The translations under genes and the position numbers were made by a program. 64,000 nucleotides of DNA from Neoarius graeffei (Eukaryota; Chordata; Actinopteri; Siluriformes; Ariidae), in NCBI RefSeq assembly GCF_027579695.1, contig NC_083570.1, positions 9,162,793 to 9,226,792 on the forward strand, in the 5' to 3' direction. Position 1 is the first letter of the stretch; each line of letters opens with the position of its first letter. This document shows, piece after piece, positions 2,600 to 47,629 of this stretch. A model generated the notes under the pieces. That model saw nothing but the letters and a program-made list of their open reading frames with translations, did not search any database and was not told the DNA's origin.

Positions 2600-2630
<31 letters not shown>

Positions 2631-2644
2631 GACTGGCTTTTTTG

Positions 2645-3056: not shown

Positions 3057-3904
3057 ATGGCTGAGGCCAGTATTTCAGTAGCTCAGGACCAGTTCATGTG
3101 TCCAGTGTGTCTGGATCTCCTGAAGGATCCGGTGACTATCTCCTGTGGTCACAGTTTCTGTAAGGCGTGTATTAATGGCTGCTGGGATCAGGAGGATCAG
3201 AAGGGCGTCTACAGCTGTCCTCAGTGCAGAGACACTTTCACTACAAGGCCTGTTCTACGCAGAAACAACATGCTGGATGAAGTGGTGCAGAAACTGAAGA
3301 AGAAGACTGAAGTCTCATCCTGTTTTTGTGAACACAACACCGAGTCAGGTGCATCAGACAAAGAACAGGTGAGAAGGAGAAATGGTTTCAGACTGAATCC
3401 TTCGACATTTTGTTTCTAATCCTGCTTTACTCAGGTCATATGGTGTAAAAATGTCATGACTTCTATTGATTATAAATAATAAATATGTTCCATGTATCCT
3501 GTAGATGTGAACAGTTTTACAAGCACATACTGAGTACCTTTGACCTCACTCAGAGAGAGCCAGGATATGGATGATCTTTAACTTGAATTGCAGTTAATAA
3601 TCTCCCACCTTCGACCTGTCTTTGAGTGAACACTTTACAGTTAGTAAAGTTAGTAATTAACTCAGGATGTAACATCATTTCATTCATTCTTGTCAGAGTG
3701 AGTTAAAGTTGAAGGAGGAGCAGATGAAATCCCAGCAGAGAATCCAGGAGAAGCAGAAGAAGGTGCAGGAGCTGAAACAGGCTGTGAACACTATAAAGGT
3801 GAGCAGTGAGCAGAGACAGAGCTGCTCCTAGAAACACACACAACATGGACAACGAGTCATTTACAGTCCCAGTAAGAGAGGGAATGATAGATGAGCTTTA
3901 CATC

Positions 3905-3951
<47 letters not shown>

Positions 3952-4725
3952 CTAACAGCTCAGTGCACAGACAGCAGTGGAGGACAGTGAGAGGATCTTT
4001 ACTGAGCTGATCAGCTCCATGGAGAAAAAGCGCTGGGAGGTGACGGAGCTGATCAGAGATCAGGAGAAGGCTGAACTGAGTCGAGCTGAACGACTCCTGG
4101 AGCAACTGGAGCAGGAGATTGCTGATCTTCAGAGGAGAGTCACTGAGCTGGAGCAGCTTTCACACACCCACGATCACATCCATTTCCTCCAGGTAACACT
4201 CATTGTCTGATATCACTTGCACTGTGGTCTGAGAATATTCGTCCATCTCGTACACCACTCCGTTTCCAGTCTCTCAGTGTCTCTTCTGGACGTGGTGACT
4301 CATCCATCATTACTGTCCATCAACATGTTTCATTTGATGGAGTGAGGAATTATCTCTCAGAGATGAAAAAGCAATTCAACAAAATCCCTTCATATGGTGA
4401 GAGGAAGTAAAATGTTATAAATCCACGCATATACATAAAAAAAGATTTATTGTACTTATCTGAACTTAACATTGTCGCAGCTACCATCTGAAAGATATTG
4501 CACTTATACAGTTCATCAGTCATATTAAGATCATTTATTTTGCCAATATTCATAAATTCAAACATCGTGTTTCCTAAAATCACACTCTGATCATTGTATA
4601 TTATTCCACCTCCATTTTCTCTCCGTCACAGCAATTTGGATGAATTTACCTTCAGAGCTGAAGACTCGAGAAGATTTTCTACAATGTATGTATGCATCTC
4701 TCTCTCTCTCTCTCTCTCTCTCGCT

Positions 4726-4783
<58 letters not shown>

Positions 4784-7700
4784 GCTGCCAGATCATTAAG
4801 AACATATGTTGTTTTTGGAGACGTTTCCTTCCACAATAAAGAGAAGTGAAGAATGGAGGTGTCATGTTGAGTGTCGCTGACAGCACAGCGCTGGTGAAGT
4901 TCGATATGTTTGATCCATGAATGTATATGAAGGTTAATAACATTCTAGTCATTTTCTTTCCTGAAGTTTATACAAGAAGCAAGTCAAGTTTATTTGTATT
5001 GCACTTTTAACAACAGACATTGCCACAAAGCAGCTTTACAGAAAATTAAAGACTTTGACCATGAGCTAATCCATCCATCCATTATCTGTAGCCGCTTATC
5101 CTGTGCAGGGTCATGGGCAAGCTGGGGCCTGGCTGGGTACACCCTGGACAATTCGCCAGATCATTGCAGGGCTAACACATAGAGACAAACAACCATTCAC
5201 ACTCACACCTATGGTCAATTTAGAGCCACCAATTAGCCTAACCTGCATGGAGCACCAAGAGAACATGCAAGCTCCACACATAAAGGCCCCCATCGGCCAC
5301 TGGGCTTGAACCCAGAGCCTTCTTACTGTGAGGCGAGAGTGCTGTACCACTGTGCCACCACATGAGCTAATTTTATCCCTAATTTATCCCCAATGAGCAA
5401 GCCTATGGTGACGTTTGCAAGGAAAAACTCCCTCAGGCGACACGAGGAAGAAACCTTTTGAGGAACCAGACTCAAAAGGGAACCCATCCTCATTTGGGTG
5501 ATAACTGATAGCATGATTATAAATAACTCTCTTCCATAACTGTGTCCTACAGAGCCACAAATTATAACTGTGTAACCAGGAACTTCATTATAGTTTTAAC
5601 ACGGTCTGTTTTGTTGAAGTTATAAACTGTTCATTGATGGAAACTTGAGTGCAAAACTGTTCAAGACAACTGCAGTCCTAAAGTTAGCAAGTCAACTGTA
5701 GTTCTCAGACATAAATATATTACTGTAAGTGTCCAGAGCGTCTTCTAAGTATGACTTTCGACTGTCCATATGGGACCATCCTCCACAGGAGTGATGTGAT
5801 GAGACTCCAGCCAGAAGTAGGGCATCAGGATGGATCAGGCAGGTCCGAGGAGCAGAAGAGGTCAGCATCACTGGTTTCTCAGGATTGACATGTAACTCAA
5901 CAGAGACAGACAGAAGGAAGATATGAGAGAGAGAGAGAGAGAGAACAAAGGTTGTGAGGTATGCCCAGTGTCACCTTATGAATAAGAACAGTATATATTT
6001 TGCTCTGAGTGCAAGCAGGGACTCTGGCAACACTAACCATGACAGCATATTTAAAAGGGAGAGCCAGAAGGTAACACAGGCATGAGGGAGCCCCGGGACA
6101 TAAAGCAGCAGCCACTCCACCATCAACAAACCTGAGTGAGTGAGTGAGTGAGTGAGTGAGTGAGTGAGTGAGTGAGTGAGTGAGAGTGGGGGACTGACAA
6201 CATCCATATATCCCAGTTTACCAAAACACTCTATGCCTGAGGACTCACCAGAGTTACTCCTTTACCGAATAAAAAACTATCTTGACTGAAAAGATATATT
6301 TTCAGCCTAGACTTAAACACTGAGACTGTGTCTGAGTCCTGAACACTACTTGAAAGGTTGTTCTATAACTGTGGGGCTTTGTAAGAAAAGGCTCTGCCCC
6401 CTGATGTTGCCTTCACTATATGAGGTACCAACAAATAACCTGCATCTTTTGATCTAAGTAGGCATGGCGGGTCATAAAGGACCAGAAGTTCGTTCAGGTA
6501 CTGTGGCGCAAGACCATTCAGTGCTTTAAAGGTCAATAGTAGGATTGTATAATCAATACGAAATTTGATTGGGAGCCAGCGCAGTGTGGATAAGACAGGG
6601 GTGATGTGGTCATATCTTCTAGTTCTAGTAAGGACCGTTGTTGCTGCATTTTGAACTAACTGGAGCTTGTTTATGCACTTATTGGAACATCCAGACAGTA
6701 AGGCATTACAGTCATCCAACCTGGAGGTAAGAAAAGCATGAACTAGTTTTTCTGCATCTTAGTGACATTAAATTTCTTATCTTGGCAATATTTCTGAGAT
6801 GAAAGAAACCTATCTGGGTAATGTTATCATTATGAGTTTCAAATGAAAGACTGGAGTCGATGATCACACTGAGGTCTTTTACTGCTGCACATGAAGAAAA
6901 AAGCAGTGGACCTAAGACAGAACCTTGTGGAACACCAAACTTTACCTCAGCATGCATAGAAAAATCACCATATACATCAAGAAACTGATAGTGATCAGTT
7001 AAATAAGAGCTGAGTCAGGAGAGGGCCGTTCTCTTAACTCCCACAACATTTTCTAGTCTACCCAGGAAAATGGAATGATCAATAGTGTCAGAGTCTGCAC
7101 TAAGGTCAAGCAACACAAGCAGCGAGACACAGTCCAGATCAGATGCCAACAACAGGTCATTTACTACTTTAACCAGTGCTGTCTCTGTGCTATGATGAGG
7201 TCTAAATCCTGACTGATACATTTCATGGTTGTTATTCCAATGTAAATATGAGCATAACTGCTGTGCCACAGCTTTTTCTAGGATCTTGGAGATAAAGGGG
7301 AGGTTTGATAATGGCCTTTCATTGGGCTGACAGGGGTCGAGGTCAGGTTTTTTAATCAGGGGTTTGATAACTGCAAGTTTAAAGGATTTGCATATGTAGC
7401 CAATTCTAAGGGAAGAATTGATTATTTCTAGAAGAGCTTAAATTGCTTCTGGTATTATCTGTTTGAAGAGACATGTAGGTAAGGGATTAGTACACAAGAA
7501 GAAGATTTTGATGTGGAAATTAATTTGATTTCTCGAAGAGGAGTAAAACATTCTAATTGCTTAGCTTATACAGTTATATTGTTAACAACTGGGTTATTTA
7601 AGTTGTCTGGGCTTAAATGAGTAGTTTGAATTTTTTTTGTTGGATATTTTCAATTTTGTGATTGAACAAAATTATGACGTTGTTGCTGCTGCATATTGCA

Positions 7701-10209
7701 GGTGCATGTGTGTCTGTAGTGGTCTTTTCTTAGTTAATTTTGCTGCAGGATTAAAAAGGAATCTAGGATTATTTTGTTATCTTTGATTAGGGTGGAGAGA
7801 TACATTGATCTTGCAGCACGAGGAGCTTTTCTATACTTCAGGAAGCTCTCCTTCCATGCTAATTTGAATACGACCAATTCTACAAGGAATATCATCTAAT
7901 TGTGTAATCTCCTGCGCTCTCTCTCTCTCTGATATAATGTGTAAGAAACTGAGGGTGTGAGAGAGTGTCAATATGAGGCACTAATGAATTACTGGTTTCA
8001 TTATGACTCATTGTACCCCTGTGTTTACAACCTCGATTCCAAAAAAGTTGGGACAAAGTACAAATTGTAAATAAAAATGGAATGCAATGATGTGGAAGTT
8101 TCAAAATTCCATATTTTATTCAGAATAGAACATAGATGACATATCAAATGTTTAAACTGAGAAAATGTATCATTTAAAGAGAAAAATTAGGCGATTTTAA
8201 ATTTCATGACAACAACACATCTCAAAAAAGTTGGGACAAGGCCATGTTTACCACTGTGAGACATCCCCTTTTCTCTTTACAACAGTCTGTAAACGTCTGG
8301 GGACTGAGGAGACAAGTTGCTCAAGTTTAGGGATAGGAATGTTAACCCATTCTTGTCTAATGTAGGATTCTAGTTGCTCAACTGTCTTAGGTCTTTTTTG
8401 TCGTATCTTCCGTTTTATGATGCGCCAAATGTTTTCTATGGGTGAAAGATCTGGACTGCAGGCTGGCCAGTTCAGTACCCGGACCCTTCTTCTACGCAGC
8501 CATGATGCTGTAATTGATGCAGTATGTGGTTTGGCATTGTCATGTTGGAAAATGCAAGGTCTTCCCTGAAAGAGACGTCATCTGGATGGGAGCATATGTT
8601 GCCCTAGAACCTGGATATACCTTTCAGCATTGATGGTGTCTTTCCAGATGTGTAAGCTGCCCATGCCACATGCACTAATGCAATCCCATACCATCAGAGA
8701 TGCAGGCTTCTGAACTGAGCGCTGATAACAACTTGGGTCGTCCTTCTCCTCTTTAGTCCGAATGGCACGGCATCCCTGATTTCCATAAAGAACTTCAAAT
8801 TTTGATTCGTCTGACCACAGAACAGTTTTCCACTTTGCCACAGTCCATTTTAAACGAGCCTTGGCCCAGAGAAGACGTCTGCGCTTCTGGATCATGTTTA
8901 GATACGGCTTCTTCTTTGAACTATAGAGTTTTAGCTGGCAACGGCGGATGGCACGGTGAATTGTGTTCACAGATAATGTTCTCTGGAAATATTCCTGAGC
9001 CCATTTTGTGATTTCCAATACAGAAGCATGCCTGTATGTGATGCAGTGCCGTCTAAGGGCCCGAAGATCACGGGCACCCAGTATGGTTTTCCGGCCTTGA
9101 CCCTTACGCACAGAGATTCTTCCAGATTCTCTGAATCTTTTTATGATATTATGCACTGTAGATGATGATATGTTCAAACTCTTTGCAATTTTACACTGTC
9201 GAACTCCTTTCTGATATTGCGCCACTATTTGTTGGTGCAGAATTAGGGGGATTGGTGATCCTCTTCCCATCTTTACTTCTGAGAGCCGCTGCCACTCCAA
9301 GATGCTCTTTTTATACCCAGTCATGTTAATGACCTATTGCCAGTTGACCTAATGAGTTGCAATTTGGTCCTCCAGCTGTTCCTTTTTTGTACCTTTAACT
9401 TTTCCAGCCTTTTATTGCCCCTGTCCCAACTTTTTTGAGATGTGTTGCTGTCATGAAATTTCAAATGAGCCAATATTTGGCATGAAATTTCAAAATGTCT
9501 CACTTTCGACATTTGATATGTTGTCTATGTTCTATTGTGCATACAATATCAGTTTTTGAGATTTGTAAATTATTGCATTCTGTTTTTAGTTACAATTTGT
9601 ACTTTGTCCCAACTTTTTTGGAATCGGGGTTGTAATACACGATAAACTTTATTGCGCAACATCTCTTTTCTTTCAGATTTCTGTTATCTGACTCTGGATC
9701 CCAACACGGCACATGGTTCCCTCCGTCTGTGTGAGAAGGACAGAGCGGTGAGACGCAGTTATAAAGAGAAGCTGTTCCCTTATCACCCTGAGAGGTTTAC
9801 CTCCATCGCTCAGGTGTTGTGTAAGGAGAGTGTGTGTGGACGCAGTTACTGGGAGGTGGAAAGGAGCAGTGAGGGATGTGTGTACATCTCAGTCTCATAT
9901 AAAGGGACCAATGAAAAAGAGCAGCCCAGACGGACCATATTTGGGTACAACGATCAGTCGTGGAGTCTGGTGTGTTCTCGGACTCCTCTTCATTTCTATC
10001 ACAACAACATTAAGACCGAGTTCGGAGTTCCGTCACCTTCCAGAATAGGAGTGTATGTGGATCACAGTGCAGGAACTCTGTCCTTCTACAGTGTCTCTGA
10101 CAGGATGAAGCTCCTCCACAGAGTCCACACCACATTCACTCAGCCTCTATACGCTGGGTTTACTCTGTGGGCTCCTGAATCAGTTGTCAGGTTTTCTGAT
10201 CCACAATAA
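3057..10209 (+). CDS. TRIM-A: RING / coiled-coil / PRY-SPRY protein lacking B-boxes (453 aa)
   Basis: Six exons join in frame: 3057-3368, 3697-3798, 3959-4192, 4270-4396, 4632-4685 and 9677-10209, giving 1362 nt. All have AG/GT borders. The start has a good context (aaaaATGGct). Residues 12-60 form a C3HC4 RING with C15, C18, C30, H32, C35, C38, C54 and C57. Residues about 105-216 are heptad-rich coiled coil. The small fifth exon gives [11 protein letters not shown], which runs into [12 protein letters not shown] of the PRY; SPRY motifs include YWEVE and [13 protein letters not shown]. The B-box region of TRIM-B is replaced by an 18-residue link (SSCFCEHN...). TRIM proteins usually act as cytosolic E3 ubiquitin ligases and this SPRY class is expanded in fish; the ligand is unknown. 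The last intron is swollen by an L2, a SINE and a Tc1. The fish finTRIM-like family call is sure; the exact orthologue is not. Confidence 0.85.
3907..3948. repeat. (GT)n microsatellite upstream of TRIM-A exon 3
   Basis: About 21 GT units lie directly before the acceptor of exon 3. The same tract is shorter in copy C (about 42963-42986) and appears as (CA)n in inverted TRIM-B (19692-19728), so it is an ancestral part of this intron. Open frames of TH or CV repeats here are artefacts. Confidence 0.95.
4699..4781. repeat. (CT)n(AC)n compound microsatellite after TRIM-A exon 5
   Basis: A CT run is followed by a long AC run starting 14 bases after the exon 5 donor. The copy C equivalent (43731-43796) has fewer units. 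Frames across it are not coding. Confidence 0.95.
5071..5361 (-). mobile_element. tRNA-derived SINE nested in the L2 LINE
   Basis: The element is bounded by a perfect 10-base target duplication, atgagctaat, at 5061-5070 and 5362-5371. On the minus strand the head carries an A-box-like tggcacagtgg and a B-box-like gggttcaagcc, and the tail is (atgg)n. The copy C counterpart (44086-44388) has the same duplication, so insertion predates the large duplication. It is a SINE, not a tRNA gene. Confidence 0.85.
6133..6186. repeat. (GAGT)n tetranucleotide repeat
   Basis: About 13 tandem gagt units sit in the L2-derived intron sequence. Copy C has only about three at 45165-45180. The tract is non-coding and probably highly variable. 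Confidence 0.95.
8028..9632 (-). mobile_element. Tc1/mariner transposon, private to copy A
   Basis: Both ends carry long inverted repeats with the core ccaaaaaagttgggacaaag, and the element is flanked by TA at 8026-8027 and 9633-9634. Copy C shows the exact empty site gtgtttaatacac with a single TA at 47053-47054. The element therefore entered TRIM-A intron 5 after the segmental duplication. Total length is 1605 bp, normal for the superfamily. Confidence 0.95.
8275..9324 (-). pseudogene. Tc1-like transposase with one internal stop
   Basis: The reading frame begins at 9324 or at an inner Met (MGRGSPIPL) and shows a paired-like [22 protein letters not shown]. Next come VLWSDESKF (first catalytic Asp), [11 protein letters not shown] (second Asp) and LSPIENIW (Glu), fitting a DD34E-type catalytic triad. 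One TGA at about 8578 breaks the frame after LGQHMLPSR; the frame then continues to the end at about 8275. Apart from that stop the protein looks complete, so the copy is young but probably non-autonomous. Confidence 0.85.
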
Positions 10210-10361
10210 TGGATCATTAATTTATAGTATCCTGTACTGAGTGCTGCAGAGTTCTGGTCTGAAGGTGATTAATTCCCTATAACAGCAGCTCTGACAGTAG
10301 TGCAGCTGCAAATCATTAGTGTTTCTATAGTAACAGCTCGTGTGTGTTTCTCACAAGCATT
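10210..10361. other. TRIM-A 3' flank, no gene seen
   Basis: This short stretch lies between the TRIM-A stop and the RTE-like LINE remnant. It is shared with copy C and has no clear AATAAA signal. Confidence 0.5.
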
Positions 10362-11256
10362 TCACCTAAAATACTCTCTTACTGCCACTCGACATGAACA
10401 TGGTGCTCTCTGAAAGACTATACAGGCATCTGCCCAGGAGGTTGTGCCAGTTTTAAGGCTTGAGCAGTTTTTCGTCTCGTGTCTCTCATCCTTTGATTTC
10501 CGTCGATTGGATTCAAAGGTCTCAACTCCATTGCAGACCACACGCCTCCAGAGCAGTCCATCAGTTGATGCTGTAGCCCAATCAATAATCCCACACTCTT
10601 TAAAAGTTCTTTTTAGGGCATCCTTGTATCTCTTCTTAGGAGCACCAATGCTTCTCATTCCTGTGGATCGCTGACTGAAGAAAAGCTGTTTTGGAAGTTG
10701 TTTTGCATCCATTTTAACAACATGTCCATACCACCTCAGCCTATTTTGCTGAAGCATAGCCTCGATGCTTGTTAAGGAGGCTCTATCAAGAATTGCAGCA
10801 TTGGTAACACAATCATACCATTGGGCGTTCATGATGGATCGTACCGTAGGCATCTTCAGTGAAATTTCTCAAGTTGTTTTACTTGATATTGGTACGTAGT
10901 CCATGTTTTTGACCCATACAGGAGCATTGGTATTATAGTGGCATTATGGACTCTTATTTTAGTTTTCAACTCAAGTTCGTGATGATCAAAATCATGCTTA
11001 CGTAGCTTGCCAAAAGCTGTTGCTCCAGCACTGATGTTGTTATTAATTTCATGGTCAAGGGAAATATCACCTGACACATAGCTGATGAGATATTTAAAGT
11101 GTGGGATTACCTTAAGAACAGTTCCATCCACAGAAATTTCAGGTTGGGTGGTGATTGGGATGGAGGTGTCAGAGGCAGGTCGACACACAACCTCTGTTTT
11201 AGTGCAGTTCAGTGACAGCCTGAGTCTTTTGTAGGCTTCTGCAAGGCATCTGTGAT

Positions 11257-12169
11257 CATAGGCGCCAACTTCATGTCAACATTGGGGGGGTCAGAATTAT
11301 GTTCTTGCACCGTGACGTCATGACGTCGGCAGTGTATGTAGTTGAATATCAAAGACTCAGTTGTAAGTCATTTTCATTCATTACTATTCACCATTGCAAG
11401 TGGGAAGCGCCCATTTTAACGATAACTTATTATGATGCATTAAAAAATCTCACGACTTTAAACATTGTATGAAACACAATTTATTCAATAAACAAATTTA
11501 GTTTCATGCAATTTTCTTTGAGATGAATTCGGCAGACAACTGTACATGAATGTAGTTTCTGTTAAGAGTTAATGGATATGACAAAGTTAATTTTAATCTT
11601 ACTTACAAACTTTAACAACACATCTCTTTCATGGCGACGGAAATTAACAAGTAGGCAGTGAGAAAATCATATTCACCCTAATAGCCCATCAGCCCTAAAA
11701 CTTCGCAAAAACATCACTCCTTCTGTCACAAGCGCTGAACTCATTGGTAATTTTTTTCAAATCAATGTGGTCTGTATATTCCTTGTGTGTGTAAAGAACA
11801 GCCAAGTAATTCAGTCTCGGAGCAGTCATGGTGCTCCGCAGGTAGGTCTTAAGTCTGCGCAAAGCACTAAAGGACGTGTAAATTTTGCGTAGTGCAACCT
11901 GTCAATCACTCACTGCCAACCATTGGAATATTGCAAGTGGAAAAGGGGGCGGGTCATGTCCGATCATAACATTTTAGGTGACGTTTCTATAGATTACTTA
12001 TTTTGCATTCAAAGCTAGGCTATTATTTGTTTAGGTGGTTTCAATCGTCAGTTAACATGAGTTCATCTGTACTGTTTACTACTTTTTTCATTATTGGGGT
12101 GTTTTTGCCCCCCCAACTTTATCTTTGGGGGGTCAAAAAGGTCCGTGCCCCCCGCAGATGGCGCCAGTG
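11257..12169. mobile_element. Non-autonomous hAT-like element, private to copy A
   Basis: This 913 bp insertion is flanked by a perfect 8-base duplication, tctgtgat, at 11249-11256 and 12170-12177. It has short inverted ends: cataggcgcca on the left and tggcgccagtg on the right. An 8-base duplication is the hAT signature. Copy C has the single empty site at 48675-48682. No transposase is visible inside; the content is AT-rich with G- and C-runs near the ends. Confidence 0.9.
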
Positions 12170-12321
12170 TCTGTGATTCTCTGCAAGCCAGCTTCTGAGT
12201 ATGAACAGAGCGCAGCATCATCAGCATACTGAAGTTCCACAACTGAGGCTGTAGACACCTTACTTTTAGCTTGCAAATGATGTAGGTTGTACCATTGTAT
12301 TGATAAACTATCTGTATTCCA

Positions 12322-13122
12322 TGATAAGAAGAAGAACAACAACAACTTTATTCATCACATGTACACTTGTGAAATTCCTCTCTGCATTTAACCCATCTGA
12401 AGTAGTGAATGCACACGTGAGCAATGAGCACAAACACGTACTCAGAGCAGTGGGCAGCTGTGCTACAGCAGCCAGGGAGCAGTTAGGGGTTAGGTGCCTC
12501 GCTCAAGAGCACCTCAGCCTAAGGGCACCCCATGTTAATCTAACGACATGCCTTTGGGCTCTGGTGGAAACCAGAGCACCTGGAGGAAACCCACGCAGAC
12601 TCCACACAGAAAGGCCCCCGTCAGCCGCTGGGCTCAAACCCAGAACCTTCTTGCTGTGAGGCGACAGTCAAGTCAAGTCAAGTTTATTTGTATAGCGCTT
12701 TTAACAAACATTGTCGCAAAGCAGCTTTACAGAATTTGAACGACTTAAAACATGAGCTAATTGTATCCCTAATCTATCCCCAATGAGCACGCCTGTGGCG
12801 ACGGTGGCAAGGAAAAACTCCCTCAGACTACATGAGGAAGAAACCTCGAGAGGAACCAGACTCAAAAGGGAACCCATCCTCATTTGGGCAACAACAGACA
12901 GCATGACTATAATATTAACAGTTTTAACATGAGGACAGTTTCGTTGATGTTATAATTCTTCATTGATGGAAACTTGAGTGCAAAACTGTTCATGATAACT
13001 GCAGTCCTAAAGTTAGCAAGTCAACTTTAGTCCTCAGCCATAAAAGCATTACTGTAAGAGTCCAGAGCATCCTCCAGGTATAGTCCAGTAACAGTGCTAA
13101 CCACTACACCACCGTGCTGCCC
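12322..13122 (-). mobile_element. Second tRNA-derived SINE family inside the RTE LINE
   Basis: On the minus strand the head has a tRNA-like promoter (gtagtggttagc, then gggtttgagccc). The body contains cagatgggttaaatgcag and the tail is a gtt repeat after tgaataaag. It interrupts the RTE-like frame between its N- and C-terminal parts and is present in copy C at about 48832-49195. In copy A it is itself split by the L2 fragment at 12669-13090. Confidence 0.75.
12669..13090 (-). mobile_element. 5'-truncated L2 insertion, private to copy A
   Basis: The sequence between two acagt copies (12664-12668 and 13091-13095) matches the 3' region of the L2 at 4981-5760, ending on the minus strand in aaataaacttgacttgact. 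Copy C has the uninterrupted SINE with one acagt at 49163-49167. Short length, an L2 3' end and a target duplication show a 5'-truncated retrotransposition event. Confidence 0.85.
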
Positions 13123-13373
13123 AGATAATGCAGATTCGGCTTGGCTACATGCAGGACAGCACCTGTGAAGAGAGCAAACAATGTAGTGGCTACACAGCTT
13201 TGTATTACACTAACTTTCACAGGAAAAGGTTCCAGTTCTTCATCTTCACAGAGAACAGAAACAGTCATCCCATCATGGAGAAGACGAATCATTGTGATCA
13301 GTTTATCTGGGCACCAGGAATTCTCCAAAGAACCTCTCTATTCACTGAGAGCAAGAGATACTAAGAAATACTG

Positions 13374-15590
13374 AATAACGTAGAACTCCAACATCATGAA
13401 GCTGAGAAATTTACTGGACTTATTGTCTTTTTTTTTTAACGAGACTAAAAAGCTGCTGTTCCATTAAACCCAGTTACAGTATAACACACAGCAGGGACCG
13501 AATAAGCCATTCATCTCATCATGAATCAATATTGTTGATTATATTTATGATAAGATAAGTTTTCAATCTATTCTGATGTGAGTTCAGCAAAAATATTGAA
13601 AATGGTTCATTTCTTGCAGCGTCACGTGTCTATGAGCGTCCTCTAGTGGTCAGAAATGATAAGACAAGTTTAAATTGCAGTCATTTAAATTTAATGAATA
13701 AATCACTCAATTTTTCATTTTCTGAAAATTTATAAAGAAATAAATGGCTAAAGTGAGATAAAGGAATTCTTTAAAGTGAATTTGATTTTATTGTCGCCTA
13801 CACATGAATGTTAAATGGTAAATGTGGCCAGAGATCGATTTCTGTACTTCAATAGAAAGTATCATGTATGTCATTTATGTTCTTTTCCCATTTTGTCCTT
13901 TCTTTCTGTCCATGAAGTGTATGCGGTGAAATCACATTTTAAAATCAGAACTCCAGATAGAATTCTATAATATGCGAATACAATCGAGTTATTTGGAGGC
14001 TCAGTTTTACAGAGTAGCACCACATCACTGAAAAACAACAACAACAACAACAAAAAAAAAACCCCAGCAGCCTTTCAACATCAATTCTGTATCTTCACTA
14101 AAAGACACACAAGAGGATTTACAGCAGGACCGTGTCTTACTACAAGCACTAAAAACTACCACATTGTGTTCATTAAGGATGGAAATAAAGCAGAAATATT
14201 TCACTGTCATCTGCACTTCAGTGTCATTTGTTCTGCTGAAATATTTTCCTCATTCTGTCAGTTTGGAATTTAGTGAGGAGTGAAAATGAATCGGAATAAA
14301 TGACTCTTTATTACCACAAGGGGAGTCAAAACCTGATTTGATTTATTTTGCATTGTTTATTGCTAATAGAAGTCCCACTTTCTCATGAACAGATTGTTGA
14401 GATGGAAATGAAGTTGGTAGATGAATATGTTTGAGATCAGAGATCCTGAGTCGCCTCAATCAGTCATTAGACGTGTCTTTGAGAAGTAGGAGAACACTGG
14501 AGAACCAGGAGGAAACCCACACTGACATGGGTCATTTTACCTTTGGGTCATTTTAACATTGTTAACAGACTGAAATGAATCTCCTGAAAGGCAGAAGAAA
14601 GAAATCTGCGAGTAGTGTTAACACAAGACTTTATCTAATCCCAGTCAGTGCAGGGTTCAAACCCCATCCACCAGAAATATCATTAAAATCAAAGGGAAAG
14701 GCAGAGACGAGGCGAGATCATCAACAGGAGATCTATCCAGAATAAACACGGCTCACAACTGAGGAGATTTACTAACACACTGGAAGAGTTCACAGTTACT
14801 GTAGGATCATTGTGCATTTTTCAACAACAGACAGGAAATGAGTGGAGGAAGTGAAGTTATTCAAAATGTGTAAAGGCGCCCTCTGGTGGTCTGGAGGAGA
14901 AATGTCCAGGTTAAATATTGCAGAGTTCATCCACGTTTCTTTTATTTTTATTTGTGAACCAACAGGTCTAAAATAATTTCACTTCAATGAGCTGTTACTA
15001 TAGAAACAAGGACGTATTAGTGCAAGTCCATTAATATAAACCTGCATTACTGTCAGAGCTGCTGTTATAGAAAAATAATCAACAACTTATGACCAACCAG
15101 AATAGTCAACTGGAACAGAATTATTTTTTTTGTTTTATTTGATTGAAAATTAAAAGGATTTTTAAAAAATGTTTTTCCAACAATCATGTTGAGAATCTAA
15201 ATCAGGAGTCAGAGCACAGACAGATCCAGTTCACAGAGACAGATTTATCATTATTCACACAGACAATATATGACAACATTAAAAGAGATGTTTTTTGGAG
15301 GAAAAAGTCAGTTGTAGGTTTACAGTGATTTTCACAAACACATATTTAAGACACTGTAGTTATTTCCCACAGATTAAATCATCTAAAAATATCCATCCAA
15401 AGTGGAGAAAAACCCCGTTGCGTATCAATACAGCAGCTTGCTGACATCCTGACCTCAGTATTAAAAGCTTCTGTCTGAAAATGAGTTCAGCACAGAAACT
15501 CCATCACTGGGGGAAACTTTATTCTCCTGTGCTCTTATCTTTTATTCTGCAAAGCTTTGATTGTAATATTTGCATGGATTAAAGCAAAAA
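13374..15590. other. Intergenic flank of TRIM-A; no gene recognised
   Basis: About 2.2 kb shared with copy C (49446-51665). It is AT-rich with short poly-A/T tracts. Open frames are short, and those seen in both copies lack protein-like features. Part of it (14379-14806 and 15425-15577) recurs near TRIM-B at 22869-23290 and 25022-25205. No promoter or RNA gene could be supported. Confidence 0.5.
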
Positions 15591-15688
15591 AAAAAAAAAT
15601 TTGACTGAAAATTTATGGGGGCGTTATGGGTGGATTTCGATGAAATTCTGAGAATGGTTAACTTAGAACTGATAACTTTATCAATTAA

Positions 15689-16122
15689 TTAATGGATTAA
15701 TATATTCAATTTATTGTTGAGTGATTCTTCACCATTGTTTGTTTTTGAGATAAAAGCACAGACACGTATTTTCTGTGCACAGACACGATCAGTCATAGAT
15801 GGACTGACCTCCGTTGAGGTGAGATTTGCTCCTGGGAAAGAAGAGGTGTGCTGAAGACCCCTTACATTGGCCTTGTGGCTGGCTTCCAGTTGATGGCACG
15901 ACAGCACTTTCTTTCTATTGCTTCCGTATATTATTTTTTTGTGGCAAACTGCACAAATGTTTAGTTTTTTTGCACCATGAACTAAATGGCTTTCCGTTTT
16001 CACCTATTTCGTACAGCCAAGCCCACCTCCACTTGTTTTTTACACCTTTATCAATGGCAGACACATCAGTGCCTTCTTTCATGCAAAGCGCATCCATGCT
16101 GCCGAAACCGAAAGCAGAATGA
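15689..16122 (-). pseudogene. BED-like zinc-finger ORF remnant (copy A)
   Basis: Two overlapping minus-strand frames together read like one domain. The first has DVSAIDKGVKNKWRWAWLYE. The second has LNICAVCHKKIIYGS followed by HQLEASH, a C-x2-C...H-x5-H pattern as in BED fingers. One base shift separates them near 15985. BED fingers are common at the N-terminus of hAT transposases and derived host proteins. No transposase core follows, and the same broken remnant is in copy C (51766-52199), so it is old. The hAT origin is inference. Confidence 0.5.
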
Positions 16123-17021: not shown

Positions 17022-17031
17022 AAATTTAGGT

Positions 17032-17727: not shown

Positions 17728-17733
17728 TTTATT
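17728..17733 (-). terminator. Poly(A) signal overlapping the TRIM-B stop codon
   Basis: On the minus strand the last codons read gaa taa, embedded in gaataaaag, so an AATAAA hexamer overlaps the stop. If used, the 3' UTR would be extremely short. Use is unproven. Confidence 0.3.
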
Positions 17734-19693: not shown

Positions 19694-19729
<36 letters not shown>

Positions 19730-20031: not shown

Positions 20032-20089
<58 letters not shown>

Positions 20090-23290: not shown

Positions 23291-23371
23291 TCTTTCTTGT
23301 GTTGAAAGGCAGTCAGCATCCTTATTGTTGCATTGCTGCCACCTTCTGGATCAATTCCTTGCACCATTATA

Positions 23372-37391: not shown

Positions 37392-39070
37392 TAATAGTTT
37401 GCCGCAGGTCTAAGAGGAACTCGGTCAGGTTTATGCATTTTTGTGACACACTGTACATTTATAATTACTGTAGGATTTAATTTAATTATTGTAACAAATG
37501 TTCAGAAATCCACACATATTGACAGAATACAGGCTTGTAAGAAACTGTACATGTTTATAGAGCAAGGTTTTTTTGAAGTAATCGTGGTAATGTCTTCTGT
37601 GTTACATTGTTGATGTGCAATCCTGGTCGTCGTGGCTCTCTCGTGAAGTGCTGGCCGTCCTGAACGAGGCTCTTCCTGCTGTCAGCACAGATATAGAGCG
37701 TGAACTGGAAGGGACGCAACGTTTGGCTTGGCGCTACACCACTCTGCTGGAGAGACGCTCTGAATCCGACACTGACGCCGAGCTAAACAGGGACCTGCTC
37801 ACACAGGCCCTGTACAATGTACGCCAACATGAAGCCTTCCTCAAAATCATACTGGTGAGTTACAGAGACATCTAAATGTTCAAGCCAACGATTAGAATAA
37901 AAGTTATTGGAAAACATTTAAATTTCTGTTACTATTTTATTCTTATTATGGCTAACTTTCGCTAATAATCATTAAGAGTAAAAGTCACGTAACGTAATAA
38001 AACGTAGTTCATTTGTCTCCACCAGGCGGATGTGATCACATGTGCAAAGCAAGTGGAGGCTCTTCACACTGACCTCATGTCGAGGATGAAGGTGCTGAAG
38101 GCCACAGTTCACGCCAAAACTGCCGTACCAACCTCCCAAGTGTTGCTCTCTTCTACCAACCACAGATTGTTCGTACAGTAAGTGTTCCTTTGCTCTGTCG
38201 AAAACTCTTTGCTAGCATCATTTTCAGTCTGATCATTTTAAATCCCTCCCATTAGCCTCATTTCACAGCGTTGGCCAGGCTGTGGGCGGGGCTTCAGGAT
38301 GAGATGGTCTTGTTGAACATGCTCCGGAGCATGGCGCTCAGCCTGAGGCCGTTCCTCTCGGCTCAGTCGCAACTTCTCGAGAACGTTCAGTTGGATCAGA
38401 TGCTCCGCGGTGAAACCGTCAAATCTGACGCAGAGAGAGCTGCTGAGAGCTCAGGTACGTTCTGACATCACGAGCTTTTTATTCATTACAGAACAGCATC
38501 TTGTTAGTGGGCAGCTTGTTATGTCCAAGAAGTGTAGCGTAAACTCCTCTGGCCTGAAGACATCGGAAAAAACTTGAGCATTACAGCTTTACGTCTTTGA
38601 GCGAGCGCATTTCATTTCTACATTATCACTCATCATGTGTAGTGTGTAGTGTAGCACTCATTTTCTCTTTTTCAGAGGAGCGGCTTGATCCAGAGGAGAT
38701 GAAATCGTCCGAGTGGATTCTGCCCGAGAGCACGGCGAACTTTGAGCAGCTCTTCCTGCAGTACAGGGGTGTGTGGATACACTCTTGTCGAGAAGAACGG
38801 CCTCTTGCTCCCAGGTTCATAGCGAAGCTTTTCTTTCTCCAGTTTTACACTCTGGTTTTTTTATAGTCCGAATATTAGAGCGTTCATACGACTAGACAGT
38901 GTTTAGACCAAGACGTATTCAGCTCCCCAAAAGAAACAAATTTGTGATGTAAAGTGACACTACAGCATTAAAACACTGAAAGTGAAACATCTCTGGTTGA
39001 AGCTCCTCGTTCTTCAGTCATTAATTCGACCTACTTTGTTTGTTTCCATATTTGCTTTTGGTGTTCGACG

Positions 39071-39609: not shown

Positions 39610-40686
39610 AATTAAACCGACTTTAAAATATAATTAATAAAGGACACGCTTTAAGGCAAGACGTCCATATTTCTGAAGCTCAGTCTGCTGCTGTTCCTTT
39701 CCAAAGGCAATCCGAACATCGGCATCCTGAAGCACAGGGAGAAATATTACAGCTTCAGCTCCAAGCAGGCTGCGTATCAGTTCGCCTCAAACGCAGACGA
39801 GTACATTGAACTGATCGCGGAAAGAGCGAAGAGATCTCCGGAGCTGATCCAGCTGCTCGAGCTTCATCAGCAGTTTGCCAGCGTCACTCCGTACTCTCAG
39901 GTATCATGGACGTGTGACTTACTTGCATCTTCTCCTTCACATACTTGACCTACTCGCTGATCTCCACCACAAACTCCATTCCCCATGAACGCTCTTAGCC
40001 TACAAATATGGCTGATCCAGCACCTACATACTGATCCAACACAATCAGTTGCGGCGTATGAAGACTCCACACACACTCTGCACATTAAAACTGCTCAACT
40101 GCAATCCCATCCTTGTCCATCTCATCTGTGAGCCTGAGAGTGACAGGAAAATAATCAACAACAATGCGGTGAGCCAGTGCAAAGCAGCGTTTCTTAGAAA
40201 GTTTGTCTTCACAGATGCAGTCAGGTGAGAAATTGTTGGTGAAACCCATCAGCAAAAGTGAAAGCAGCACACAGACGGACACACACCTGCTGGAGAGCAA
40301 CATCGTCAGATCTTACGAGTGGAACGAGTGGGAGCTGAGACGGAAAGCCATCAAACTGGTAAGCAGCTCCACCTGAAATACACTGGCATGATTAGATTAC
40401 GCTCAAGCTGTCCGAAAAGCCCTGAAACAAGTTTAACACGTTATTTTGTTGAATGCACTCCAAGGCGAACCTGCGCCATAAGGTAACCCACTCGACGCAG
40501 ACTGACCTGAGCCACATGAGGAGACACAACACCACGCAGACGTTCCTTCCAAAAGAAGCCGCCTGCCAGACGAAGAGAGACGGACAGAGTAACGTACCGA
40601 GACCTCAAGTCTACCTGGCTGGGCTGAGAGGAGGACCAACCACTCCCATGACCAAACTCGATTTAACTCCAGATGTGCATGAATAG

Positions 40687-42112
40687 TTAATTTGTTTGTT
40701 TGTTAGTTAGACCTAGTATTGAATGTTTGTATTGAATTGTTGCATTCTGGTTTCTGATTGGCCAGAAAATACTGATTAATTTTCTCTGAAAGTTTTGCAG
40801 GCGTATATTAATGCACTCATTCGAATTTATGGTTTTCATCGTACCAGCTCGTTCCCAGGGATTTCTACGATGGACGCTAGACATAAACCGATTTTAAAAA
40901 TCATTTAAATGGTGATGTTTTCGTAACTGAAGGGAGATGTTCATTTAGCATTTCTGGAAGGAGTCTCCAGTGTAACAGTCAGAGGTGAAGTTTTGTGACA
41001 CCTTCAGGACAGAGGAGTTTATGCTTCGCAGTTTCTTGGTTACAACATGATTTTTTTTTTGTCTTATTAACTTTAAGAGAAGGATAATAGGCAGGCTGGT
41101 GAGGGAACGACTGTTAATGTAACTACAAATGGATAAAAAAAAACTATGATGTGAAATTTGTAATTGTTGGCAAATTGCTGTGGTAAAAGAGGAATTGTGG
41201 GAGATGATACTTTGGTACCGAATGTCAGTCAAAGCAGCGCGCACACAATTATGAAAATGATCTTATTGGCTCTAATAATATTAAATATTATTATACATAC
41301 AGGAGACTTTTTCAATGGAATAAAAATGTGTGTTCTATTCCCTTCTAGTGGGTTTCATTCATTCGGTTTGGTAGCATGCAATATTGTTAGCGTATCGCTT
41401 ATCCTACATGTATTACGTCACTCTACCCACTGGAGAATGAGCGTTGAATATGATTTACGATATTGCATGGTTGTCAAGGCAACATGACGTCACACGTCGG
41501 AGACGTAAAACTTCCACGTGAGCGAGCGAGCAACTGTGACAATTTGTGAACAAACATAGCTTCTACGATTGCTTCGTTAAATACAGAAGATTTTGAGAGA
41601 ATTTTGAAAGAGAAAGACGCGTTGAACACCCGGAAGGAATGTATAATAATAATAATAATAATGATAATAATAATATTGACTGGCTTTTTTTGTGGTCTAT
41701 CAGATATATTCCATTCAGCTACTCGTCTTTGACTCATTCATTATCATGCTAGCTGAATTGAATACATCTGATATACCACTCAATGCCAGACAATATTATT
41801 TAATTATCCTGAGGAATAACACAGCAGACTGTGAGGTTACACAAAAATAATCCACGCCAGCATGGATTTACCACTTTACCATCTTTGATTTATTAAAAAG
41901 TAGCAGGTGTATAAAATGAGATTGAAGCTTCTGCGCACACACACACACACACACACTGTCACACAGCCACACCCCTTTGACAGTCTGCACTCCTACTCTT
42001 TTTAAAGCTCCACCCACTCTGGCTCTGTGATATCGTATCTCACAGTGCAGCAGGACGCTCATTTCAAAGCACACAATTCCGATCTCTACTGTATGTGTCG
42101 CTCTCTGGAAAA
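40687..42112. other. Flank between CFAP206 copy C and TRIM-C
   Basis: This matches 1651-3056. It contains the dispersed repeat (about 41005-41200), an ataat tract (41643-41675), the MITE-like inverted repeat and a CA tract (41935-41956). No gene is seen. Confidence 0.6.
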
Positions 42113-43728
42113 ATGGCTGAGGCCAGTATTTCAGTAGCTCAGGACCAGTTCATGTGTCCAGTGTGTCTGGATCTCCTGAAGGATCCGGTGACTATCTCCT
42201 GTGGTCACAGTTTCTGTAAGGCGTGTATTAATGGCTGCTGGGATCAGGAGGATCAGAAGGGTGTCTACAGCTGTCCTCAGTGCAGAGACACTTTCACTAC
42301 AAGGCCTGTTCTACGCAGAAACAACATGCTGGATGAAGTGGTGGAGAAACTGAAGAAGACGACTGAAGTCTCATCCTGTTTTTGTGAACACAACACCGAG
42401 TCAGGTGCATCAGACAAAGAACAGGTGAGAAGGAGAAATGGTTTCAGACTGAATCCTTCGACATTTTGTTTCTAATCCTGCTTTACTCAGGTCATATGGT
42501 GTAGAAATTTCATGACTTCTATTGATTATAAATAATAAATATGTTCCATGTATCCTGTAGATGTGAACAGTTTTACAAGCACATCCTGAGTACCTTTGAC
42601 CTCACTCAGAGAGAGCCAGGATATGGATGATCTTTAACTTGAATTGCAGTTAATAATCTCCCACCTTCGACCTGTCTTTGAGTGAACACTTTACAGTTAG
42701 TAAAGTTAGTAATTAACTCAGGATGTAACATCATTTCATTCATTCTTGTCAGAGTGAGTTAAAGTTGAAGGAGGAGCAGATGAAATCCCAGCAGAGAATC
42801 CAGGAGAAGCAGAAGAAGGTGCAGGAGCTGAAACAGGCTGTGAACACTATAAAGGTGAGCAGTGAGCAGAGACAGAGCTGCTCCTAGAAACACACACAAC
42901 ATGGACAACGAGTCATTTACAGTCCCAGTAAGAGAGGGAATGATAAATTAGCTTTAAATCTCGTGTGTGTGTGTGTGTGTGTGTGTCCTAACAGCTCAGT
43001 GCACAGACAGCAGTGGAGGACAGTGAGAGGATCTTTACTGAGCTGATCAGCTCCATGGAGAAAAAGCGCTGGGAGGTGACGGAGCTGATCAGAGATCAGG
43101 AGAAGGCTGAACTGAGTCGAGCTGAACGACTCCTGGAGCAACTGGAGCAGGAGATTGCTGATCTTCAGAGGAGAGTCACTGAGCTGGAGCAGCTTTCACA
43201 CACACACGATCACATCCATTTCCTCCAGGTAACACTCATTGTCTGATATCACTTGCACTGTGGTCTGAGAATATTCGTCCATCTCGTACACCGCTCCGTT
43301 TCCAGTCTCTCAGTGTCTCTTCTGGACGTGGTGACTCATCCATCATTACTGTCCATCAACATGTTTCATTTGATGGAGTGAGGAATTATCTCTCAGAGAT
43401 GAAAAAGCAATTCAACAAAATCCCTTCATATGGTGAGAGGAAGTAAAATGTTATAAATCCACGCATATACATAAAAGATTTATTGTACTTATCTGAACTT
43501 AACATTGTCACAGCTACCATCTGAAAGATATTGCACTTATACAGTTCATCAGTCATATTATGATCATTTATTTTGCCAATATTCATAAATTCAAACATCA
43601 TGTCTCCTAAAATCACACTCTGATCATTGTATATTATTCCACCTCCATTTTCTCTCCGTCACAGCAATTTGGATGAATTTACCTTCAGAGCTGAAGACTC
43701 GAGAAGATTTTCTACAATGTATGTATGC

Positions 43729-43798
<70 letters not shown>

Positions 43799-46700
43799 GC
43801 TGCCAGATCATTAAGAACATATGTTGTTTTTGGAGACGTTTCCTTCCACAATAAAGAGAAGTGAAGAATGGAGGTGTCATGTTGAGTGTCGCTGACAGCA
43901 CAGCGCTGGTGAAGTTTGATATGTTTGATCCATGAATGTATATGAAGGTTAATAACATTCTAGTCATTTTCTTTCCTGAAGTTTATACAAGAAGCAAGTC
44001 AAGTTTATTTGTATCGCACTTTTAACAACAGACATTGCCACAAAGCAGCTTTACAGAAAATTAAAGACTTTGACCATGAGCTAATCCATCCATCCATTAT
44101 CTGTAGCCGCTTATCCTGTGCAGGGTCGTGGGCAAGCTGGGGCCTGGCTGGGTGAAAGGTTGGGTACACCCTGGACAATTCGCCAGATCATTGCAGGGCT
44201 AACACATAGAGACAAACAACCATTCACACTCACACCTATGGTCAATTTAGAGCCACCAATTAGCCTAACCTGCATGGAGCACCAAGAGAACATGCAAGCT
44301 CCACACATAAAGGCCCCCATCAGCCACTGGGCTTGAACCCAGAACCTTCTTACTGTGAGGCGAGAGTGCTGTACCACTGTGCCACCACATGAGCTAATTT
44401 TATCCCTAATTTATCCCCAATGAGCAAGCCTATGGCGATGTTTGCAAGGAAAAACTCCCTCAGGCGACACGAGGAAGAAACCTTTTGAGGAACCAGACTC
44501 AAAAGGGAACCCATCCTCATTTGGGTGATAACTGATAGCATGATTATAAATAACTCTCTCTTCCATAACTGTGTCCTACAGAGCCACAAATTATAACTGT
44601 GTAACCAGGAACTTCATTATAGTTTTAACACGAAGTCTGTTTTGTTGAAGTTATAAACTGTTCATTGATGGAAACTTGAGAGCAAAACTGTTCAAGACAA
44701 CTGCAGTCCTAAAGTTAGCAAGTCAACTGTAGTTCTCAGACATAAATATATTACTGTAAGTGTCCAGAGCGTCTTCTAAGTATGACTTTCGACTGTCCAT
44801 ATGGGACCATCCTCCACAGGAGTGATGTGATGAGACTCCAGCCAGAAGTAGGGCATCAGGATGGATCAGGCAGGTCCGAGGAGCAGAAGAGGTCAGCATC
44901 ACTGGTTTCTCAGGATTGACATGTAACTCAACAGAGACAGACAGAAGGAAGATATGAGAGAGAGAGAGAGAGAGAACAAAGGTTGTGAGGTATGCCCAGT
45001 GTCACCTTATGAATAAGAACAGTATATATTTTGCGCTGAGTGCAAGCAGGGACTCTGGCAACACTAACTACGACAGCATATTTAAAAGGGAGAGCCAGAA
45101 GGTAACACAGGCATGAGGGAGCCCTGGGACATAAATCAGCAGCCACTCCACCATCAACAAACCTGAGTGAGTGAGTGAGAGTGGGGGACTGACAACATCC
45201 ATATATCCCAGTTTACCAAAACACTCTATGCCTGAGGACTCACCAGAGTTACTCCTTTACCGAATAAAAAACTATCTTGACTGAAAAGATATATTTTCAG
45301 CCTAGACTTAAATACTGAGACTGTGTCTGAGTCCTGAACACTACTTGGAAGGTTGTTCTATAACTGTGGGGCTTTGTAAGAAAAGGCTCTGCCCCCTGAT
45401 GTTGCCTTCACTATATGAGGTACCAACAAATAACCTGCACCTTTTGATCTAAGTAGGCATGGCGGGTCATAAAGGACCAGAAGTTCGTTCAGGTACTGTG
45501 GCGCAAGACCATTCAGTGCTTTAAAGGTCAATAGTAGGATTGTATAATCAATACGAAATTTGATTGGGAGCCAGCGCAGTGTGGATAAGACAGGGGTTAT
45601 GTGGTCATATCTTCTAGTTCTAGTAAGGACCGTTGTTGCTGCATTTTGAACTAACTGGAGCTTGTTTATGCACTTATTGGAACATCCAGACAATAAGGCA
45701 TTACAGTCATCCAACCTGGAGGTAAGAAAAGCATGAACTAGTTTTTCTGCATCTTAGTGACATTAAATTTCTTATCTTGGCAATATTTCTGAGATGAAAG
45801 AAAGCTATCTGGGTAATGTTATCATTATGAGTTTCAAATGAAAGACTGGAGTCGATGATCACACTGAGGTCTTTTACTGCTGCACATGAAGAAAAAAGCA
45901 GTGGACCTAAGACAGAACCTTGTGGAACACCAAACTTTACCTCAGCATGCATAGAAAAATCACCATATACATCAAGAAACTGATAGTGATCAGTTAAATA
46001 AGAGCTGAGTCAGGAGAGGGCCGTTCTCTTAACTCCCACAACATTTTCTAGTCTATCCAGGAAAATGGAATGATCAATAGTGTCAGAGTCTGCACTAAGG
46101 TCAAGCAACACAAGCAGCGAGACACAGTCCAGATCAGATGCCAACAACAGGTCATTTACTACTTTAACCAGTGCTGTCTCTGTGCTATGATGAGGTCTAA
46201 ATCCTGACTGATACATTTCATGGTTGTTATTCCAATGTAAATATGAGCATAACTGCTGTGCCACAGCTTTTTCTAGGATCTTGGAGATAAAGGGGAGGTT
46301 TGATAATGGCCTTTCATTGGGCTGACAGGGGTCGAGGTCAGGTTTTTTAATCAGGGGTTTGATAACTGCAAGTTTAAAGGATTTGCGTATGTAGCCAATT
46401 CTAAGGGAAGAATTGATTATTTCTAGAAGAGCTTAAATTGCTTCTGGTATTATCTGTTTGAAGAGACATGTAGATAAGGGATTAGTACACAAGAAGAAGA
46501 TTTTGATGTGGAAATTAATGAAATTAATTTGATTTCTCGAAGAGGAGTAAAACATTCTAATTGCTGAGCTTATACAGTTATATTGTTAACGACTGGGTTA
46601 TTTAAGTTGTCTGGGCTTAAATGAGTAGTTTGAATTTTTTTGTTGGATATTTTCAATTTTGTGATTGAAAAAAAATTATGAAGTTGTTGCTGCTGCATAT

Positions 46701-47629
46701 TGCAGGTGCATGTGTGTCTGTAGTGGTATTTTTCTTAGTTAATTTTGCTACAGTATTAAAAAGGAATCTAGGATTATTTTGTTATCTTTGATTAGGGTGG
46801 AGAGATACATTGATCTTGCAGCACGAGGAGCTTTTCTATACTTCAGGAAGCTCTCCTTCCATGCTAATTTGAATACGACCAGTTCTACAAGGAATATCAT
46901 CTAATTGTGTAATCTCCTGCTCTCTCTCTCTCTGATATGATGTGTAAGAAACTGAGGGTGTGAGAGAGTGTCAATATGAGGCACTAATGAACTCCTGGTT
47001 TAATTATGATATATAATGATTATGATTATAATAATCATTGTACCCCAGTGTTTAATACACGATAAACTTTATTGCGCAACATCTCTTTTCTTTCAGATTT
47101 CTGTTATCTGACTCTGGATCCCAACACGGCACATGGTTCCCTCCGTCTGTGTGAGAAGGACAGAGCGGTGAGACGCAGTTATAAAGAGAAGCTGTTCCCT
47201 TGTCACCCTGAGAGGTTTACCTCCATCGCTCAGGTGTTGTGTAAGGAGAGTGTGTGTGGACGCAGTTACTGGGAGGTGGAAAGGAGCAGTGAGGGATGTG
47301 TGTATATCTCAGTCTCATATAAAGGGACCAATAAAAAAGAGCAGCCCAGACGGACCATATTTGGGTACAACGATCAGTCGTGGAGTCTGGTGTGTTCTCG
47401 GACTCCTCTTCATTTCTATCACAACAACATTAAGACCGAGTTCGGAGTTCCGTCACCTTCCAGAATAGGAGTGTATGTGGATCACAGTGCAGGAACTCTG
47501 TCCTTCTACAGTGTCTCTGACAGGATGAAGCTCCTCCACAGAGTCCACACCACATTCACTCAGCCTCTATACGCTGGGTTTACTCTGTGGGCTCCTGAAT
47601 CAGTTGTCAGGTTTTCTGATCCACAATAA
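42113..47629 (+). CDS. TRIM-C: RING / coiled-coil / PRY-SPRY protein lacking B-boxes (453 aa)
   Basis: Exons 42113-42424, 42753-42854, 42995-43228, 43306-43432, 43665-43718 and 47097-47629 join to 1362 nt in frame and match TRIM-A exon by exon. The RING residues (C15 to C57 set) are all present. Seven coding differences from TRIM-A were found by eye; four change the protein (Q to E and K to T near the RING-linker, Y to C and E to K in the SPRY). The B-boxes are missing as in TRIM-A. The last intron lacks the Tc1 seen in TRIM-A. Both copies are open, so both may be expressed. Function is inferred from family: an E3 ligase whose SPRY domain selects the target. Confidence 0.85.
42963..42986. repeat. 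(GT)n microsatellite before TRIM-C exon 3
   Basis: About 12 GT units, against about 21 in TRIM-A at the same place. Confidence 0.9.
43731..43796. repeat. (CT)n(AC)n microsatellite after TRIM-C exon 5
   Basis: A shorter allele-like form of the tract at 4699-4781. Confidence 0.9.
43996..46915 (-). mobile_element. L2-type LINE remnant in TRIM-C intron 5
   Basis: Matches 4981-7900 with the same broken frames ([13 protein letters not shown] at 46010-46264, [13 protein letters not shown] at 45707-45952, [14 protein letters not shown] at 45358-45714). Shared damage shows that it was already dead before the duplication. Confidence 0.75.
44086..44388 (-). mobile_element. tRNA-derived SINE in the L2 (copy C)
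   Basis: Flanked by atgagctaat at 44076-44085 and 44389-44398. It is 12 bases longer than the copy A element through a local gggtgaaaggtt-type insertion near 44151-44162. Confidence 0.85.

Follow-up and report, generated by a model that had tools for sequence, protein, structure and literature searches.

A B-box-less TRIM-derived gene type beside B-boxed TRIM genes in the catfish Neoarius graeffei

What becomes of a TRIM gene that no longer encodes B-boxes is the question raised by a 64,000-nucleotide (nt) stretch of the Neoarius graeffei genome (NC_083570.1, here contig C2, positions 9162793-9226792; "the window"), in which the products of two genes, TRIM-A and TRIM-C, have RING, coiled coil and PRY/SPRY and lack B-boxes, and a third gene, TRIM-B, encodes a protein that contains them. 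B-boxes are thought to drive or to restrain TRIM assembly, and recent B-box-less copies beside B-boxed genes constitute matched pairs for the role of this domain, with the limit that RING and coiled coil are nearly the same (TRIM-A and TRIM-B being compared) but the SPRYs and exons 4-5 differ. Judging from the sequence, we consider it fairly probable that TRIM-A and TRIM-C are two members of an amplified finTRIM-like clade whose B-box-less products are functional and tune full-length forms via mixed dimers.

The missing B-box segment

The models of the three genes were rebuilt from the window sequence. Internal exon borders are AG/GT in all of them, the splice phases are 0,0,0,1,1 throughout, and all frames are unbroken. 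TRIM-A and TRIM-C each yield a product of 453 amino acids with the order RING–coiled coil–PRY/SPRY; TRIM-B, encoded on the minus strand from 22174 to 17729, yields one of 570 amino acids with B-boxes present. The exons are as follows:

3057-3368, plus strand: TRIM-A exon 1, RING (C3HC4) and an 18-residue link, without B-box
3697-3798, plus strand: TRIM-A exon 2, coiled coil
3959-4192, plus strand: TRIM-A exon 3, coiled coil
4270-4396, plus strand: TRIM-A exon 4, gene model
4632-4685, plus strand: TRIM-A exon 5, gene model
9677-10209, plus strand: TRIM-A exon 6, PRY-SPRY and stop
21572-22174, minus strand: TRIM-B exon 1, RING and B-box segment, convergent neighbour of TRIM-A
19836-19931, minus strand: TRIM-B exon 2, gene model
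19454-19687, minus strand: TRIM-B exon 3, gene model
19150-19321, minus strand: TRIM-B exon 4, gene model
18892-18951, minus strand: TRIM-B exon 5, gene model
17729-18276, minus strand: TRIM-B exon 6, gene model
42113-42424, plus strand: TRIM-C exon 1, RING and link
42753-42854, plus strand: TRIM-C exon 2, gene model
42995-43228, plus strand: TRIM-C exon 3, gene model
43306-43432, plus strand: TRIM-C exon 4, gene model
43665-43718, plus strand: TRIM-C exon 5, gene model
47097-47629, plus strand: TRIM-C exon 6, PRY-SPRY and stop

A Pfam scan covered TRIM-A and TRIM-B; TRIM-C differs from TRIM-A by four residues. The TRIM-A protein contains RING, TRIM_CC (PF25600, 1.3e-45, the match spanning positions 1-138 of 142), PRY (PF13765) and SPRY (PF00622), and zf-B_box is absent from it. 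TRIM-B has the same domains plus zf-B_box at residues 154-192; this is the one B-box scored by Pfam, the first being recognised by eye. Thus, of the features that define TRIM (RBCC) proteins, TRIM-A possesses the C3HC4 RING and the TRIM coiled coil but no B-box, and the A/C-type genes are TRIM-derived rather than orthodox TRIMs. The C-terminal PRY-SPRY (B30.2) of finTRIMs and class IV TRIMs is present, and the exon of about 200 amino acids that holds RING and two B-boxes in finTRIMs is matched in length by TRIM-B, not by TRIM-A or TRIM-C. We take the label finTRIM from architecture and clustering.

Exon 1 measures 312 nt (104 codons) in TRIM-A and TRIM-C and 603 nt (201 codons) in TRIM-B. The initial annotation had ascribed the net difference of 97 codons to the B-boxes; 94 of these do fall in the B-box segment (112 codons in TRIM-B, 18 in TRIM-A), and the other three are an N-terminal difference. 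The RING part of the exon is 98.1% identical between TRIM-A and TRIM-B, and the alignment ends after GAAGTC. Similarity resumes near the end of exon 1, where 20 of the final 24 nt agree, and continues into intron 1 (58/80); a separate alignment of this region shows 64% identity in 121 columns (E 3.7e-7 with the TRIM-B stretch as the sole target; shuffle P 0.0005). Since exon tail and intron start still align with TRIM-B, the change sits inside an exon that once resembled that of TRIM-B, and the segment is, on this alignment, lost or replaced within one exon, both ends of which are retained. Rebuilt models and flank alignment bear out the earlier proposal: the loss is in frame, and it spared the flanking sequence, the reading frame and the splice sites. 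The hidden B-box exon that would have spoken against it was not found: in the window, the B-box segment of TRIM-B matches the TRIM-B exon alone by tblastn, and nothing in 3369-3696.

The SSCFCEHN part of the link was compared with the B-box segment, of which it might be a remnant. The best nucleotide match (9/9, TTTTGTGAA) has a shuffle P of 0.11 and the protein comparison a P of 0.45, values that do not trace the first ten link codons to any source. An NCBIfam scan of exon 1 returned just a rad18 RING match under its cut-off, and the exon 1 model that AlphaFold built on an alignment of three rows has a predicted local distance difference test (pLDDT) score of 40, too low to be of use. Exon 4 (4270-4396) holds a second in-frame length difference, being 45 nt shorter in TRIM-A and TRIM-C than in TRIM-B.

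Copies in the window and across the genome

TRIM-A and TRIM-C lie in two duplicate blocks of the window, which are 96.7-98.3% identical over about 13.5 kb aligned:

613-17023, plus strand: segmental duplicate with TRIM-A
39649-53095, plus strand: segmental duplicate with TRIM-C

As both genes lie within one segmental duplication, one loss event accounts for them, not two. The initial annotation had counted two paralogues that lost their B-boxes, which is wrong as stated: the pair is one segmental duplicate with one loss, and no fewer than 28 copies of exon 1 in this genome show it.

The two blocks differ by insertions. Intron 5 of TRIM-A carries a Tc1-like insertion (8028-9632) with duplicated TA, the frame of which scores slightly under the cut-off for HTH_Tnp_Tc3_2, and a second insertion present only with TRIM-A (11257-12169) is flanked by an 8-bp target duplication, TCTGTGAT. 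Both sites are empty in TRIM-C, so that TRIM-A and TRIM-C must be distinct copies rather than a single sequence that entered the assembly two times. An end piece of CFAP206 (FAP206, PF12018) was duplicated together with the TRIM unit (619-912 and 39655-39948), and an earlier piece of the CFAP206 domain is found, within the window, upstream of TRIM-C only (37591-37875). These pieces do not settle the direction of the duplication because repeats border both ends.

The search was extended to the 2.34-Gb genome to which the window belongs; all copy counts are lower bounds. At least 28 open exon 1 copies, among the best 150 of 671 candidates, match over the full 104 positions, link included; each is free of stops and located on C2 at 4.9-10.94 Mb. 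The remaining 122 of these 150 matches reach just to residue ~88-101. With link and intron 1 DNA as query, at least 30 matches were obtained, every one on C2, and the TRIM-A SPRY detected at least 32 exons without stops at 92-100% (best 150 of 759), the next class being at 70%. When exon 1 and SPRY copies were paired by position, a matching SPRY exon was found downstream in 26 of the 28 copies, 19 of which have all six exons in an intact frame and with canonical borders; in L022, exons 3 and 4 are fused through a deletion and the frame is apparently open. Two more A-type SPRY exons lie at 9570904 and 13169537.

By pattern match, the C3HC4 RING is kept in 28 of 28 copies, as is the CxCEHN link, with identical links in 23. 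As all copies share the link, a single in-frame B-box loss in one ancestor may be inferred. A B-boxed ancestor with the A-type 3' half was sought and not found in the fetched stretches of loci L101-L104: in the two link loci L101 and L102 these stretches contain no more than the 3' portion of the RING exon, and L103 and L104, with A-type exon 4 and SPRY and without the link, are visible there from exon 3 onward alone.

Near-identical copies can be assembly errors, and a missed B-box exon or a false assembly duplication would turn the whole pattern into an artefact. We regard this as highly improbable. In its favour, a few sequences are identical (the 28 exon 1 copies comprise 24 distinct sequences, and the 19 intact coding regions 18); against it stand the 80 changes that segregate in the 19 intact copies, the two TRIM-A insertions with target duplications at sites empty in TRIM-C, and the confinement of B-box coding in the window to TRIM-B.

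Convergent neighbours and a common coiled-coil block

In 22 of the 28 B-box-less copies, the next other TRIM exon 1 downstream, among the matches listed, is convergent and 12.7-24.3 kb off; for the other six, no TRIM exon 1 is present within 30 kb downstream among these matches. In 2000 rounds of random placement, convergent pairs averaged 6.8 and never exceeded 15, the test using 121 exon 1 matches after exclusion of one on contig C14 and of two partial link copies. The 22 neighbours are TRIM-B and 21 others. All 21 were fetched; in each, the B-box segment is complete (113 residues) and its frame open, with 86.7-99.1% identity to that of TRIM-B by BLAST, and the RING pattern matches 20 of them (the exception is L116). 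A hand-made B-box 2 pattern, applied to these 21 neighbours alone, matched none of them and was dropped; BLAST with the TRIM-B segment matched them all. At the level of gene order, this arrangement shows that the B-box-less and the B-boxed gene were copied as a unit; joint action of the pair is no part of this conclusion.

Upstream of TRIM-B, a site resembling an interferon-stimulated response element (ISRE), with one mismatch, is present at 22210-22221, beginning 47 nt before the ATG; no such site was detected upstream of TRIM-A and TRIM-C. With 0.15-0.23 sites expected by chance per 1500 bp, it was judged too weak and rejected as an interferon element.

Beyond gene order, TRIM-A and TRIM-B have in common, also with other subfamilies, one block:

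3693-4211, plus strand: 519-nt block, exons 2 and 3 with intron 2 between them

Over exon 2, intron 2 and exon 3, TRIM-A and TRIM-B are 99.0-99.6% identical in aligned positions, with 147 of 148 aligned nucleotides identical in intron 2. Outside the block, identity amounts to 68% for what remains of intron 3, 85% in exon 4, 63% in exon 5 and 85.5% in exon 6. The protein comparison is alike: 109 of 110 residues are identical in the coiled-coil exons and 122 of 175 (70%) in the SPRY. The alignment with TRIM-A ends at 3693 and 4211 in six of the seven non-A-type copies compared, L107 extending further, and the B-type copies have the flanks of the block in common among themselves. Genome-wide, 140 of the 150 listed exon 3 matches show 100% protein identity and ten show 99%, with matches on contigs C14 and C23 included (best 150 of 647 candidates, counted as exons with the gene class unspecified). 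The same coiled-coil exon is found in a further TRIM subfamily with other flanks at 12.6-14.6 Mb of C2, to which L107 belongs.

The simplest reading would be gene conversion of one cassette between subfamilies, with near-constant borders and on several contigs. By such conversion, the B-boxed TRIM-B and the B-box-less TRIM-A would have practically one dimer interface.

Constraint, known systems and possible action

Are the B-box-less copies maintained as genes? Between TRIM-A and TRIM-C, 7 of 1362 coding sites differ as compared with 195 of 11983 noncoding sites (P 0.0006), and the four changes at 1068 nonsynonymous sites are likewise fewer than the noncoding rate predicts (P 0.0004). No coding indel was seen, as against 4.5 expected from noncoding DNA, an expectation that counts repeats. 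Segregating changes in the 19 intact copies comprise 54 nonsynonymous ones and 26 synonymous ones, giving a ratio of nonsynonymous to synonymous polymorphism (pN/pS) of 0.56 (P 0.016), and mean pairwise pN divided by mean pS is 0.54. By region, pN/pS is 0.37 for the SPRY, 0.45 for the coiled coil, 0.71 for exons 4-5 and 0.74 for the link. No listed RING change falls on a zinc ligand. These values suggest coding constraint of moderate, not strong, degree.

Several results weigh against functional proteins that tune their full-length relatives. The coding difference between TRIM-A and TRIM-C is not significant when compared with the gene's own introns (P 0.054) or as nonsynonymous against synonymous change (P 0.17), and across the 28 copies, exons and introns are not set apart by substitution types (P 0.07) or indel types (P 0.41). 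In the RING, pN/pS reaches 1.55 (18 nonsynonymous to 3 synonymous changes; P 0.056 against the remaining regions), and the link, with three changes in 43 nonsynonymous sites, is not more conserved than the remaining protein. Six of the 26 copies with a SPRY are broken (L013, L031, L027, L032, L034 and L035), and two of the 28 (L010 and L036) lack an A-type SPRY among the matches listed. The pairing with B-boxed neighbours may merely reflect duplication of a two-gene segment, and since the common coiled-coil block includes an intron, gene conversion suffices at the DNA level, without selection for a common interface.

Such points would agree with neutral hitchhiking: without its B-boxes the gene would be weak or dead, and would owe its amplification solely to its place in one duplicating segment with a B-boxed TRIM. 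The copies are recent (mean pairwise pS 0.015 for the 19 intact ones), the broken frames are accompanied by additional copies that are fragments, and several constraint tests are not significant, as this explanation would have it; it is called into question by the 19 intact frames out of 26, by RING ligands present in 28 of 28 copies and by the overall pN/pS. We consider it rather unlikely.

Known systems offer partial parallels. FinTRIM (ftr) genes and fish class IV TRIMs have the RING exon, the coiled coil, the B30.2 exon and the large clusters (PMC2657112, PMC3137616), and TRIM-B has their full set; in contrast, the A/C-type lacks B-boxes, a difference that no fewer than 28 copies of exon 1 show here. 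Zebrafish btr31 is a fish class IV gene in which the end of exon 1 is deleted and the B-boxes are gone; unlike the A/C-type, it no longer has a coiled coil either and has acquired a transmembrane exon (PMC3137616). TRIM25 has RING, coiled coil and SPRY like TRIM-A, but two B-boxes in addition (PMC13175477). A match in architecture is Riplet (RNF135): the tetrapod protein is a RING–coiled coil–SPRY ligase without B-boxes that acts on RIG-I (PMC10640585; PMC13175477), and TRIM-A shows the same composition. Tetrapod Riplet lost its B-boxes, fish Riplet is reported to retain them, and the ancestor is inferred to have been B-boxed (PMC13175477).

By score, TRIM-A does not appear to be an RNF135 orthologue. 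Among the best 60 of 121 PDB matches, compared by sequence score and not by a tree, its SPRY obtains 103 bits with TRIM16 (7qs3), 79 with TRIM25 (6flm) and 52 with the RNF135 SPRY chain (7jl1); for the whole protein, the best match listed is TRIM25 (4cfg; 137.9 bits), with RNF135 (8g7t) at 100. The best stretch of the RNF135 chain 8g7t_B lies over the RING.

Published precedents for the loss of B-boxes exist among fish class IV TRIMs and in tetrapod Riplet; the new part is a loss that was kept and amplified. No B-box-less RING–coiled coil–SPRY gene was noticed in the available text of a common carp survey (PMC10048487), and a literature search on B-box loss yielded no amplified B-box-less finTRIM clade, which is not proof of its absence. 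The clade also runs counter to a remark in the literature that fish TRIMs do not easily fix the loss of a B-box.

How might such proteins act? TRIM coiled coils form antiparallel dimers, and the B-box of TRIM5alpha builds trimers (PMC7752041; PMC5906095), and that of TRIM21 covers the E2 site of the RING (PMC5906095). The A/C-type proteins would be active E3 ligases that dimerise via the coiled coil, the SPRY choosing the targets. A B-box-less homodimer would resemble Riplet, with activity arising from target-driven clustering and without any B-box brake on the RING. Possibly this is all that matters, the proteins acting alone as E3 ligases through SPRY-target clustering and mixing with B-boxed partners being unimportant; we hold this to be a serious if minority possibility. 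The domain order, identical with that of tetrapod Riplet, whose ancestor was probably B-boxed (PMC13175477), the divergence of the TRIM-A SPRY from that of TRIM-B and the presence of 8g7t_B among the PDB matches fit with it. The coiled coil does not: it is shortened in mammalian Riplet (PMC13175477) and kept long, as in TRIMs, in TRIM-A, besides being nearly identical in TRIM-B. The state of Riplet itself is disputed, a dimer being reported in PMC10640585 and a monomer in crosslinking in PMC13175477.

For the regulation of a full-length form by a B-box-less one, which the initial annotation had raised as an example, the coiled-coil identity (109/110) and the convergent pairing with neighbours carrying the B-box segment (22/28) would provide the physical basis. 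Given a coiled coil that hardly differs from that of TRIM-B, co-expression with B-boxed neighbours should lead to mixed dimers. Such a dimer would combine two different SPRYs with one B-box set, and could thus reach other targets with less B-box assembly, by which full-length forms would be tuned. A more far-reaching and rather doubtful extension sees a two-gene module amplified as a unit, in which a single coiled-coil cassette, homogenised through conversion in over 100 genome copies, lets SPRYs combine freely in mixed dimers and the B-box-less partner sets the extent of assembly.

Apart from the TRIM genes, the window contains at 61611-62558 a frame with Retrotrans_gag (PF03732), probably part of a Ty3-type element.

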